64,000 nucleotides of DNA from an uncultured Anaeroplasmataceae bacterium (GTDB taxonomy: Bacteria; Bacillota_I; Bacilli_A; Acholeplasmatales; Anaeroplasmataceae): contig CALUYM010000006.1 of NCBI GenBank assembly GCA_944325035.1, positions 1 to 64,000 on the forward strand. Direction: 5' to 3'. Both the position numbers and the translations under genes were made by a program. Positions 3,301 to 53,573 of this stretch are shown in pieces. The first letter of the stretch is position 1. Every line of letters starts with the position of its first letter. Below the pieces are notes generated by a model, which made no database searches, was not told the DNA's origin, and saw only the letters and a program-made list of their open reading frames with translations.

Positions 3301-5498
3301 ACGAAAATATTTGGAGCAATATCTCCAATTAAATCTAACATCACTACTAATTCTTTAGAATCTACTAATGTCATTTCTAAATTAGAATCATTATAACGAG
3401 CTGATTGTGGAACATAAATTTGAACAGTCATCCCAACATTTTCAATATTAAACAATAAATCTGAAATCATTGCATGTAATAACTTTGAATAAGTATTTGG
3501 TTTAGCATAATCTAAGGTATTAGATATAACTTCTGTAATTCCGTAATTCTTATCAAATATCTTTCCTAATTTTTCAGTATTTGATGTAGTTTCATCAGTA
3601 AAAATTTCATAAATACGATATGCTTGAGTTGAAAGTGATTGAATCAATTTTGAAATTTCACCTTTAACTAATGTATCTCCTTCAAAATAAGAACCATAAG
3701 CTATATTTTGTGGAAGATTTATATCAAAGAAACTCTCGCTTATCATATCTTTTAAGCCCTGTGCATTTAAAAATGCACCAAGTACTGCATTATCAATTAT
3801 ATTATAAAGTAGTTTTGCACCATCACTACTAGTATTTTCTAAATCTTTTAGTAATGAACTAATTAATTCGTTTGTATCTACAATGTTATTCTTATTAACA
3901 TAATTAACAACATCGATAATTGTATCAAAAACACTGCTAATACTATTTGTCCATTTGATGTTATATAGCGAATAAGTATCAGCTTTATTATCAATACCAT
4001 CTAGTGAATATTCAGGCATAAATTCGTTCATACAAAGGATAGAAATGTCAGATAATAAAGCATTTGCTTTATTATTTTTCATGAAATCAAAAGAATTGAT
4101 CATTTCTTCTGTAGCTAATAGTACATTTTCAACAGCTTCAGCTTGTTCATCACTTAACATACCATTGTCACCACTATATGGTCTAATACCTAACGCTAAT
4201 GTTTCAGTTGTATCGCTTGGTTTAATTGATATAGTTGATAAAACATCATAATTTTTTGCTACTACAATTAACATGTCAAATATTAATTGTACATTATTAT
4301 TTGTGATAATTTCATTTGGATTAATTTTATTCTCTCCTGAAAAAACAGTTGAAATAATTTTAGTTTGGAAATTTTCCGAACCTTGTTCAATAGCCGCATC
4401 AGCATATGATTTTACAAAACATTGTGCCAAGTATAGTGTATAAGTACCAAAATTATGACTACTAATTATTTCATCAACTTTATCAGCAAATACTACTCCG
4501 TCTTTTTTTACAGACAATAATTCAATTAAGTAATTTGGATTATTCAATTGGCTAACATTGGCACCATAACGGAATGCTTCAATTGCTAAATCTTTAATTA
4601 ATCCCACCATTGGAGCTAACTCTTTTCGTCCATAAAATGAGCTCCCATCAATTCCTTCGGGAACATCTCCAACATTATTACCCTTTAATAAATAATCTGA
4701 TATCAAAAGATATACTGGTACATTTTCACTTGTTTTAACTGATTCCAGAATCTTACCAATTCCTACAGTACCATATCTATTTATGATATCATAATATTCT
4801 GTTATATCGTAAGTTTTATCATCTACATTGATAATAACTTCTTCTTTTGAATCACTATATTTACCACCAGATAATACAAAGAAAAGTGAGCCAACAAAAC
4901 TAAATACTAAAATAGAAACTACTAACCCTCTAAATGTTCCAATTCCCATTCCAAGTAATCGATGCTTCTTGTAGTTATTTTTAATAGCTTCTTTCTTTTT
5001 TTGATGGCGTTTTTGTTTGAAGAAAATCAAATATACTATGTATAAAATGAACTTAATTATAAAATATAGAACTAAAATAACTACTAACATTACAATTCTA
5101 ACCGCAAACTCCGCAACGGCCATTAATGCACCAACAATAGTACCTAACGAAGCACTAGTATAAAAACTTGTTGGTAAAGTAGTTGCCATAAATTCTGTCA
5201 TATATTCATTTAAACTATTATAATCAGCTGTATTCAATAATTTCCCTAAACTTGTATTAAAATTTCCTAAAATTAAATTGGTATATTGAACCGACACATG
5301 ATTAAAATCTTTTCCAAATATTAAATAGAAAATTAAAAAAGAAACACCTAAGGCAATAAACATATTAATTAGCAGAATGATGGATTTACGCAACCCACGG
5401 CGAAATCCAGTTATCGCAGCACCAACTACACCCAATATAAATAGAATTGTTGGAATATATACTAAATAATTCATATAATTAAAGGCTAAAAAAATCAT
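108..5498 (-). CDS. Giant CvpA-like membrane protein with a long repeat-built C-terminal region
   Basis: About 1,796 residues. The N-terminal 215 residues carry about four membrane segments and the run GFRRGLRKSI, which resembles the start of CvpA (colicin V production) family proteins; CvpA itself is only about 160-180 residues. The rest is hydrophilic and built from about ten diverged units of roughly 80-130 residues. A typical unit reads: acidic helix with LxxALxxLG, a short segment with DFxxIL, then SSILxxTxS, then a hydrophobic strand ending in IP. No signal peptide cleavage site, LPxTG or catalytic motif is visible. I start at the ATG at 5498 because AGAAGGAG lies 8 nt upstream; the GTG three codons earlier sits inside that SD. 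It is a single gene with its own terminator. Function unknown; an anchored adhesin-like or scaffold role is only a guess. Confidence 0.8.
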   Translation of the reverse strand: MIFLAFNYMNYLVYIPTILFILGVVGAAITGFRRGLRKSIILLINMFIALGVSFLIFYLIFGKDFNHVSVQYTNLILGNFNTSLGKLLNTADYNSLNEYMTEFMATTLPTSFYTSASLGTIVGALMAVAEFAVRIVMLVVILVLYFIIKFILYIVYLIFFKQKRHQKKKEAIKNNYKKHRLLGMGIGTFRGLVVSILVFSFVGSLFFVLSGGKYSDSKEEVIINVDDKTYDITEYYDIINRYGTVGIGKILESVKTSENVPVYLLISDYLLKGNNVGDVPEGIDGSSFYGRKELAPMVGLIKDLAIEAFRYGANVSQLNNPNYLIELLSVKKDGVVFADKVDEIISSHNFGTYTLYLAQCFVKSYADAAIEQGSENFQTKIISTVFSGENKINPNEIITNNNVQLIFDMLIVVAKNYDVLSTISIKPSDTTETLALGIRPYSGDNGMLSDEQAEAVENVLLATEEMINSFDFMKNNKANALLSDISILCMNEFMPEYSLDGIDNKADTYSLYNIKWTNSISSVFDTIIDVVNYVNKNNIVDTNELISSLLKDLENTSSDGAKLLYNIIDNAVLGAFLNAQGLKDMISESFFDINLPQNIAYGSYFEGDTLVKGEISKLIQSLSTQAYRIYEIFTDETTSNTEKLGKIFDKNYGITEVISNTLDYAKPNTYSKLLHAMISDLLFNIENVGMTVQIYVPQSARYNDSNLEMTLVDSKELVVMLDLIGDIAPNIFVDKIDYSKLLTNENVDKMMESSILKSTLSITAYTEIVKMRNYKDLIPSSLALDTDQNIEVNLDKWVGNGEIKGELNYIIDALTDGDMLNRFFASESLSPNDLINIFLDMTEEAVISAMSSNVLNIIVTSELQNISLGETSIVVPKDAKMEEDLEGKDRLKPSEVVTLLNIVKDENVGFKDVINAPSEEQSSLMIEKVLNLGTEAKQNIVNSNILNATITSYLENISIPSSGKEYGIIVPKIATIPGKDASMLTYDEFSHALDTVRLILNGKTDFTQIKLSRILDEDVIQSISSSSVLSATIINLLIDMLNSSTNENINKNFAIPQAYQVSKDELINNYDLTRWVENNELFNLLNSIKLLGVTFTDTNDFIFDEAEMLKVAINASDENSRLMQILTSEILYSSLSKSISNIGVLDVINQVQTNLYEGTDLEPQIVIKKDEVVNLFAGVELIIGADELTAGVKFNELSGLLTIERMEQRGLLTAQALDKLLDSVIVETKITTLIVETGANTLCITDDLSYTTLEDENFFNWLSINKMGEVKADEGETKKIINALDKLGLITVISQPNTKFSLDSFINLTDTEIDSILESNTIYATLLNSFYNNDTISSVLTIPSNYSNIQTSDIKSNLRSLNIVKDKEIYKVIHAIKELGISLDNPTINVNLVLSLNDSAVSNPSMTKVDVVAESSIIWLTLSENIFAMGDLALPPKDDITDIERSVLTDGLEERYILSSEIASLATALETLGMKDDIKDFDINTILSPNLDITKLCDSIIIWFNLSDKISSFKALEIPTVIRRTISSADDDTGRYLEKEEIQNLRNALYSLNFTDFERFDFNSILSKGSDERLWTSTILRYNATKTILEEATVLKVSTSDVDLLSGQYIIKTSVMIDFMKAIEGLGLTNIGNINVDFNTVMDSVDALTSSSILRNTISYEMFKASQNASLLDIIELKSVNDEKLYQINKQELMNYFEASKILGLTSYSFDKDVNIKDKNAVLAFTKSNILRITYSSVIYFTISIYNAENPDNLVTLSTEQLTIVSYNKNNQKLETKIDRFVTNETVVAFANTFSN

Positions 5499-51428: not shown

Positions 51429-52673
51429 ATGAAAAAAGCGATTTTAATAGCAATTCAAAATGGATATGAAAATATTGAATATTCTTTAGAAGAAATGAAA
51501 AATCTTGCTAAAGAATGTGATATTGAAATAATTGGACGCTTAGTCCAAAAAGGAAAAATAAATCCAAAAACATATATTGGTTCTGGAAAATTAGATGAAC
51601 TTTTGGTTGATATTAAATTAGATAATCCTGACTATATCATTTGTAATGATGAGTTAAGTCCTCTAATGCTTAAAAATTTAAATGACTACCTACCTTGTGA
51701 GGTATTGGATCGTTCTTTAGTTATTCTTGACATCTTCTTAAGACATGCAAAGACTAAGGAAGCTAAATTAGAAATTGAATTAGCTCATTTAAGATATCTT
51801 TTACCTCGCCTATCTAGTTTACGTGATGGTTTTGACCGTCAAGGCGGTATTGGTTCAAAAGGACCTGGTGAAACACAGTTAGAATTAGATCGTAGAAAAA
51901 TAAGTGGTGATATATTAAGAAAAGAACGAGAACTTTTAGGAATTCATAAAATGAAAAAAGTTCAAATTGAAAAAAGAAAGAAAAAAAACTTACAAACAGT
52001 CGCATTAGTCGGATATACGAATGCTGGAAAATCATCAACAATGAATACCTTGTTAAACTATGTCACCTATTCTAATGCAAAAACTGTTAAAGCTGAAAAT
52101 CGTCTTTTCGCTACTTTAGAAACAAGTGTTCGTTATCTAGAGTACCAAAATATTGGCTTTTTATTATCCGATACTGTCGGTTTTGTTTCAAAGTTATCAA
52201 CACATCTAATTCATTCTTTTCATGAAACACTAGCTGAAGTTAAAGATGCTGATTTAATCATTCATGTACTAGATATTTCAAATGAATTTGCTTTAGAACA
52301 ATTCTCTGTAACGATGAACGTATTATCTTCTTTAGGTGTTTCTAATAAAAAAACTTTAGTTTTATTAAATAAAGCTGACTTATGTGACAATATTCCAAAA
52401 GTCAGTGGAGTTGATTACATACCATTTTCCAATAAAACTGGATTGAATGTTAAAGAAGTATTAGACTATATCTTAAATCATATTAGTGAAGATTATGAAT
52501 CTTTAAGTGTAAGAATACCTTATAGCGATGCTAAAATTTTAAATTTTATAATTGAAAATACTAATGTTATCTCTAAAGTCTATGAAAATGATGGCATTAG
52601 TGTCGAACTAATGTGTCCAAGGCGTTTCTTAAGTAGAGTTATTCCTTATCAAATTTACTCTACTTTAAGTTAA
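51429..52673 (+). CDS. hflX: GTPase HflX
   Basis: About 414 residues. The N-terminal HflX domain has GRLVQKGKINPKTYIGSGKLDEL and the glycine-rich GIGSKGPGETQLELDRR. G motifs: GYTNAGKSS (G1), LLSDTVGF (G3), LLNKADL (G4). It binds the 50S subunit and splits or rescues stalled ribosomes. GGAGG lies 6 nt before the chosen ATG; the longer frame runs back into the promoter. Confidence 0.97.
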   Translation: MKKAILIAIQNGYENIEYSLEEMKNLAKECDIEIIGRLVQKGKINPKTYIGSGKLDELLVDIKLDNPDYIICNDELSPLMLKNLNDYLPCEVLDRSLVILDIFLRHAKTKEAKLEIELAHLRYLLPRLSSLRDGFDRQGGIGSKGPGETQLELDRRKISGDILRKERELLGIHKMKKVQIEKRKKKNLQTVALVGYTNAGKSSTMNTLLNYVTYSNAKTVKAENRLFATLETSVRYLEYQNIGFLLSDTVGFVSKLSTHLIHSFHETLAEVKDADLIIHVLDISNEFALEQFSVTMNVLSSLGVSNKKTLVLLNKADLCDNIPKVSGVDYIPFSNKTGLNVKEVLDYILNHISEDYESLSVRIPYSDAKILNFIIENTNVISKVYENDGISVELMCPRRFLSRVIPYQIYSTLS

Positions 52674-52733: not shown

Positions 52734-52761
52734 TTGACATTTTTAAAAAAAAGTGTATAAT
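52734..52761 (+). promoter_or_regulatory. Sigma-A type promoter of the orphan riboswitch
   Basis: Consensus TTGACA (52734-52739) and TATAAT (52756-52761), 16 bp apart, with TG just upstream of the -10. The transcript should start near 52768. Confidence 0.8.
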
Positions 52762-52768
52762 GAATCCC

Positions 52769-52848
52769 GTAGTTCTAATATCATATAAGTAGCCTGATAT
52801 GGAGGTTACGTTTCTACCAGAGGACCCTAAATCCTCGGACTATGAAAA
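52769..52848 (+). ncRNA. Purine riboswitch aptamer, guanine type, with no downstream gene
   Basis: The three-way junction is clear: J1/2 CATATAA, P2 GTAGCC/GGTTAC with loop TGATATGG, J2/3 GTTTCTACC, P3 GAGGA/TCCTC with loop CCCTAAA, J3/1 GACTATG. The specificity base is C (C52840, equivalent to C74 of xpt), predicting guanine or hypoxanthine. P1 is weak, about four pairs (TCAT with ATGA) before mismatches against an A-tract. GTAGTTC at the RNA 5' end can instead pair with GGACTAT, covering the ligand junction. Two terminators follow and no plus-strand gene does. Confidence 0.92.
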
Positions 52849-52882
52849 AAACTCTTTTTTGTTTTTTGTACTTTTTATGTTT

Positions 52883-52909
52883 AAACATCGCTAAAAGGCG
52901 ATGTTTTTA
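52883..52909 (+). terminator. Terminator following the purine riboswitch
   Basis: AAACATCGC (52883-52891) pairs with GCGATGTTT (52898-52906), with TTTAT following. It lies about 38 nt after the aptamer, so the RNA would be about 140 nt. Confidence 0.8.
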
Positions 52910-52914
52910 TTTTA

Positions 52915-52956
52915 TAAAAAAATAGAAGGTTAAAATCTAATATCCTTCTATTTTTA
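52915..52956. terminator. Bidirectional terminator
   Basis: AAATAGAAGG (about 52920-52929) pairs with CCTTCTATTT (52944-52953). A-tract and T-tract flank it, so it works for the riboswitch RNA and for the minus-strand gene ending at 53016. Confidence 0.75.
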
Positions 52957-53015: not shown

Positions 53016-53573
53016 CTATTGTATTTCCGCTACAACTTCTTTTTCATTGCCTTTAACAAATAACATAAGTGATGTTATTAATGCAATCGTAGCTGTTACA
53101 ATATTAAATCCACCAGCTAAATAGTTTTGAGATACGATAAAGAAAATCGCCCATAAATAAGACGAAATACTAAGTGATAATTTTAAATATTTTTCACTCT
53201 TAAGTGGACTAATTACAATAATTGAGTACTCTAAATTAGCAATTATTGGTAAATATCCATACCATGAATTTCCATCCCAAACAATATTAGCTATAAGTCC
53301 AAATAAAGCTCCAAATGCTACTAAAATAATATTCAACCATTTAGTATTTTTACCAAGCAAAACTGATGTATTACGCATAATACTTACAGTTTCTTGAACA
53401 ATACTAGAAAAAGTCGACATTAAAGCCTCGGAAATAGCTAATATTACATGGGCAATCGTCTGATCAATCAAAATTTGTTTACGCGTTTTCAAAACTGGAC
53501 TAATTAAGAAAACAGCCATCGCAATACCACCGATAATCATACCAAGCATAGAAAGCGATATCCCTAATATCAA
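53016..53573 (-). CDS. YgjV family inner membrane protein
   Basis: 185 residues with about six membrane segments. The early SPVLKTRKQILIDQTIAHVILAISEALM and the middle FGLIANIVWDGNSWYGYLPIIANLEYSI are like the YgjV family (KxRKxxLxxQ; WxxxxGxLPxxG). The start is TTG, with GAGGTG 6 nt upstream. Function of the family is unknown. Single gene. Confidence 0.7.
   Translation of the reverse strand: MILGISLSMLGMIIGGIAMAVFLISPVLKTRKQILIDQTIAHVILAISEALMSTFSSIVQETVSIMRNTSVLLGKNTKWLNIILVAFGALFGLIANIVWDGNSWYGYLPIIANLEYSIIVISPLKSEKYLKLSLSISSYLWAIFFIVSQNYLAGGFNIVTATIALITSLMLFVKGNEKEVVAEIQ

Follow-up and report, generated by a model that had tools for sequence, protein, structure and literature searches.

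A gene-less guanine aptamer unit shared by three genera of Anaeroplasmataceae, a putative guanine-gated small RNA

The window analysed here is a stretch of 64,000 nucleotides from the genome of an uncultured Anaeroplasmataceae bacterium (G000, 1.55 Mb). Behind hflX, whose stop lies at 52673, it contains a short unit on the plus strand, which opens with the promoter TTGACA-16-TATAAT (52734-52761), identical to the consensus in 12 of 12 positions and with a spacer of 16 nt; a preliminary description, made from the sequence alone, had proposed a near-consensus sigma-A promoter at this place, and this holds. Transcription is predicted to start at about 52767-52769. The promoter is followed by the 5' segment CGUAGUUC (52768-52775; core GUAGUUC, 52769-52775), a purine aptamer (52778-52848) and terminators. 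A cis-acting guanine riboswitch would have a co-directional purine gene directly downstream; the plus strand has no coding sequence from the aptamer to the end of the convergent gene at 53016, and the earlier statement that only convergent genes lie downstream is correct. This convergent neighbor (53016-53573, minus strand) codes for a membrane protein of the Imp-YgjV family.

The aptamer is matched over the full length of the Rfam purine riboswitch model RF00167 (model positions 1-102 of 102) at 52761-52862 on the plus strand, with 71.7 bits, against a gathering score of 37 bits, and an E-value of 1e-10. Its stems are formed by 52778-52785 and 52841-52848 (P1), 52789-52795 and 52803-52809 (P2), and 52818-52824 and 52832-52838 (P3). 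J1/2 reads UAA and J2/3 GUUUCUAC (52810-52817), in which the equivalent of U51 is a U at 52815; read from the sequence, the loops L2 (52796-52802) and L3 (52825-52831) carry the kissing-loop letters GG and CC, respectively. The specificity position, equivalent to C74, is a C (52840) inside GACUA. As set out in passages of two papers (PMC11477304, PMC9295807), guanine specificity goes with C at position 74, U51 and the junction letters. By score and letters, the aptamer in the window is a member of the guanine aptamer family and is predicted to bind guanine, in line with the guanine type assigned in the preliminary description.

The first terminator, T1 (52846-52876, plus strand), is an A-tract/U-tract hairpin (52846-52852 with 52861-52867) followed by UUUUU, and its 5' arm adjoins and partly overlaps P1. 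It is weak in the window (−3.1 kcal/mol). The intrinsic terminator T2 (52883-52912, plus strand; −11.9 kcal/mol) comprises the hairpin AAACATCGC..GCGATGTTT (52883-52906) plus TTTATTTT. T3 (52918-52955, −11.6 kcal/mol), again read from the sequence, is common to the convergent operon, and since T-runs flank it on both sides it is the terminator that had been called bidirectional. Thus the terminators described earlier, T2 and T3, are present, but the weaker T1, which forms the conserved 3' end of the unit, had been overlooked. The unit has a length of about 108 nt up to T1 and about 145 nt up to T2.

We inspected 42 purine riboswitches in 55 genomes of the family, with the names of downstream genes read from translations. 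Only three lack a gene: the one in the window and those at G011:C4:23945 and G008:C1:61538, in three different genera. Of the four purine riboswitches in the window genome, the remaining three are followed by a gene each, namely purE, fhs (formate-tetrahydrofolate ligase) and one for a purine permease. The gene-less unit lies directly after hflX in G000 and G011 and elsewhere in G008. Due to the Rfam E-value and the recurrence in two other genera, the gene-less arrangement is more than chance. We had also considered an assembly error or a missing gene, which is ruled out by the recurrence of this layout in three separately assembled genomes.

Two side observations concern gene-linked riboswitches of the family. 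A guanine riboswitch lies directly before fhs in G000, G002 and G008 (L003 at G000:C5:70321, L056 and L036); fhs is a less usual target of guanine riboswitches and ties guanine to one-carbon supply. Further, a guanine riboswitch precedes a gene for a BMP-type lipoprotein in two family genomes (L038, L045), possibly for nucleoside uptake.

Sequence comparison shows that a gene-less unit with promoter, GUAGUUC, aptamer and terminators is kept in the three genera. The promoters read TTGACA, TTGACT or TTTACA, followed in each case by 16 nt and TATAAT, and the alignment shows GUAGUUC, located 7-8 nt after the −10 box, to be invariant. Also common to the three units are UAUCAUAUA, GUUUCUACC and GACUAUG, and in each of them a terminator is followed by a convergent gene. 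In G011, T1 forms a hairpin of 12 bp (−12.2 kcal/mol) that overlaps P1; in G008 it is not present in the same form. The block that can be aligned between the window and G011 extends from the −35 box (52734) to the end of T1 (about 52875) with 72% identity, although the hflX proteins of these two genomes are only 46% identical. In the three-sequence alignment, which was fitted to the structure and therefore favors the count of compensatory changes, 10 of 22 aptamer pairs are changed on both sides, with P2 and P3 rebuilt; P2 re-pairs to 100% with different letters. The alignment cells pair to 90.8%, a value reached in none of 500 shuffles, and sliding the strands against each other destroys the signal. 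Comparison of the locus in relatives, which had been proposed as a check, thus yielded a short gene-less unit conserved in two other genera, none of them with a purine gene. In the hflX tree the three carriers fall into separate deep lineages; a single clade of carriers was not recovered, with placement uncertain due to long branches.

Searches for further members used a covariance model of the unit built from the three sequences. It scored 86-97 bits in the three carrier genomes, with best other matches of 66 bits in 160 genomes of the order and 70 bits in 395 genomes of the class, and it found no further member in either set. The top other matches, read singly, lie before genes for an NCS2-type permease, purE, purL or similar, a gene linkage that rests on the top-scoring matches and includes only some of the lower-scoring ones in the order. 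An exact pattern scan of genome contigs returned the two known relatives and chance-like matches without the rest of the aptamer, and no new member; in viral contigs it gave four matches. Among the varied hflX neighbors in other genera, no purine gene was recognised in the stretches seen.

The segment GGACUAUG (52837-52844, plus strand), which comprises the end of P3, the ligand-contacting J3/1 and the inner part of the 3' strand of P1, is a partner both for the 5' strand of P1 and for the 5' segment. The pairing of 52768-52775 with 52837-52844, noticed in the preliminary description, is exact (8 of 8 positions, wobbles included) and is present in the predicted minimum-energy fold. To assess it, we searched the 26 nt that precede P1, in each of 78 purine riboswitches, for their longest complement to the J3/1 region: a complement of 8 bp is found in all three gene-less units and in none of the 75 gene-linked riboswitches, which reach at most 7 bp. 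Taken alone, the match of each gene-less unit stands out only modestly from those of its shuffled leader (0.03 to 0.08), and since the three are related, they do not represent three independent events. Moreover, no covariation is seen for GUAGUUC, since ligand binding holds its partner constant, and the conservation of this motif could therefore have another cause.

In an energy model that includes neither kissing loops nor ligand, ensemble energies of the full-length RNA favor the state with the paired 5' segment over P1 by 4.1 kcal/mol in the window, 0.7 in G011 and 2.3 in G008. When the 5' segment is removed, the predicted probability of P1 increases in the window (from 0.0012 to 0.26) and in G008 (from 0.016 to 0.81). 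P1 of G011 competes mainly with T1, through an overlap of four nucleotides (GUAC), rather than with the 5' segment. A gap of a few kcal/mol could be paid by a tight guanine aptamer, as estimated from known nanomolar affinities, and guanine binding could plausibly reverse the preference for the blocked state. P1 itself has five unbroken pairs, a mismatch and one further pair in the window. The preliminary description, which counted about four pairs and spoke of decay, was right in that P1 is weak and contains a mismatch, but five pairs are continuous, and in the predicted folds the weakness of P1, or the competition for it, belongs to the switch balance and is not simply decay.

Some gene-linked leaders have similar letters. 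In family f3, NCS2-type permease leaders (L102-L127) share GUAUUC before P1 and, after it, a hairpin AUAUGAAAAC...GUUUUCAUAU whose loop is rich in U; these features recall GUAGUUC and T1, and the gene-less unit may descend from such a leader. In another family, a purL-linked riboswitch (L135, G178:C36:10481) has CGUAGUU before P1, with a 7-bp match to GACUAUG, and is the sole gene-linked case seen with those 5' letters.

On balance, we consider it probable that this stand-alone non-coding unit around a guanine aptamer is a guanine-gated small RNA acting in trans; the ligand response, the trans action and the targets of the RNA are what we infer. In the absence of guanine, the 5' GUAGUUC would pair with GGACUAU, thereby covering J3/1 and displacing P1, and T1 would be able to form. 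With guanine bound, P1 would close and GUAGUUC be released, and T1 would be weakened, such that more transcripts extend to T2. The only output of such a switch would be the RNA itself, that is, its 5' end and its length, and the simplest use would be for the freed 5' end to base-pair with target RNAs in trans. By itself, a seed of 7-8 nt should occur many times in a genome.

The preliminary description had offered a relic of a lost purine gene as one explanation. As a leader left to drift after such a loss, the unit would lack a gene, as it does; the mismatch-weakened P1 fits this as well, and so does the absence of the unit from the two genomes of the same genus, G001 and G002, which have hflX and retain other purine riboswitches with their genes. 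However, the promoter, the ligand pocket, the kissing-loop letters and, through compensatory changes, P2 and P3 are kept in three deep lineages, none of which has the gene, and the flanks are not conserved. Since the hflX tree separates the carriers, a drifting relic should long be gone, barring recent independent gene losses. A relic would also have lost selective constraint, and we find instead compensatory changes and a conservation bounded at the promoter and T1. We therefore hold this origin to be unlikely, and the earlier suggestion finds no support in a unit that is conserved between distant genera while its surroundings are not. The number of members, three only, together with the absence from the two relatives of the same genus, does suggest that these bacteria can do without the unit or often lose it.

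The opposite-strand convergent gene, present in all three loci and coding for membrane-like proteins, could point to an antisense or read-through RNA under guanine control as a regulator of this gene, in the way that AspocR acts on pocR in Listeria. Yet T2 and the bidirectional T3 separate the RNA from the gene, a distance of about 100 nt remains in the window between the predicted end of the RNA and the convergent coding sequence, so that the two do not overlap, and the three convergent proteins are unlike each other: they belong to Imp-YgjV, to no family and to TMEM164 (in L063, a membrane protein encoded at 3322-4143 on the minus strand), and BLASTP detects no similarity among them, which makes such a role quite improbable. 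Transcripts of hflX offer another context. By sequence reading, the stretch from the hflX stop (52673) to the promoter contains no hairpin terminator, and as hflX lacks a terminator of its own, its transcripts would run through the aptamer, which might then, as an element of the hflX 3'-UTR, set the 3' end or the stability of the mRNA in response to guanine. Although the unit in G011 likewise directly follows hflX, the one in G008 lies away from it and still keeps its own promoter, and both the promoter and the 5' motif would be needless in a 3'-UTR; we regard this role as very improbable. The high-affinity aptamer fold and the strong promoter would also suit a purine sponge, which would bind free guanine and thereby buffer it, but the conserved anti-aptamer segment opposes constant binding. 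A sponge is implausible by stoichiometry, too, because the number of RNA molecules in a cell would need to come close to the size of the guanine pool, and we find it hardly credible.

For the trans-acting, guanine-gated RNA, a more specific version is possible but doubtful, namely a dedicated small RNA whose conserved 5' seed, GUAGUUC, is hidden against the aptamer's own ligand-binding strand until the ligand releases it. Because this strand, GGACUAY, is nearly universal among guanine riboswitches, the freed seed could pair in trans with the leaders of others and, if so, could cross-regulate purine genes. Riboswitches are usually viewed as parts of the mRNAs that they control. If the reading is right, a conserved guanine aptamer that forms its own gene, with a blocking segment built in at the 5' end, would represent a natural metabolite-gated small RNA, and it could show a leader turning into an independent regulator; the unit provides a concrete motif and three loci for testing this.

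The closest known system is the guanine riboswitch (RF00167, guanine-I), with which the unit shares the fold, the junction letters, the equivalents of C74 and U51 and the L2/L3 letters; it differs in having no regulated downstream gene, a double or triple terminator of its own and the extra conserved 5' GUAGUUC that is able to block the aptamer. Comparable RNAs exist for other ligands, among them Rli55, whose Enterococcus counterpart is EutX. As described in the passages of PMC8079631 used here, the SAM riboswitches SreA and SreB of Listeria are riboswitch-derived small RNAs, as the gene-less unit would be, with a trans action that is shown for them and only proposed here; SreA belongs to a real operon as its terminated leader and has a role in cis, whereas our unit has no operon and guanine as its putative ligand. 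In Rli55, a B12 riboswitch, and AspocR, according to the same passages, a riboswitch controls a non-coding RNA with a short and a long form, which is what we propose for the unit, but their 3' payload is functional (ANTAR elements or antisense to pocR; PMC8079631), while the about 35 nt between T1 and the end of T2 contain no recognised payload. A c-di-GMP-I riboswitch between CD2517 and CD2517.1 of Clostridioides difficile is likewise an orphan with no associated gene and no known function; it belongs to a different ligand class, and the passage that describes it does not mention whether it is conserved in several genera as a unit of its own (PMC11477304). The literature that we covered in part, through titles, abstracts and selected passages, contained no described stand-alone guanine riboswitch RNA. 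Non-coding RNAs derived from or controlled by riboswitches are thus already known (SreA, Rli55, AspocR; PMC8079631), and within this partial coverage a stand-alone version based on guanine appears to be new.
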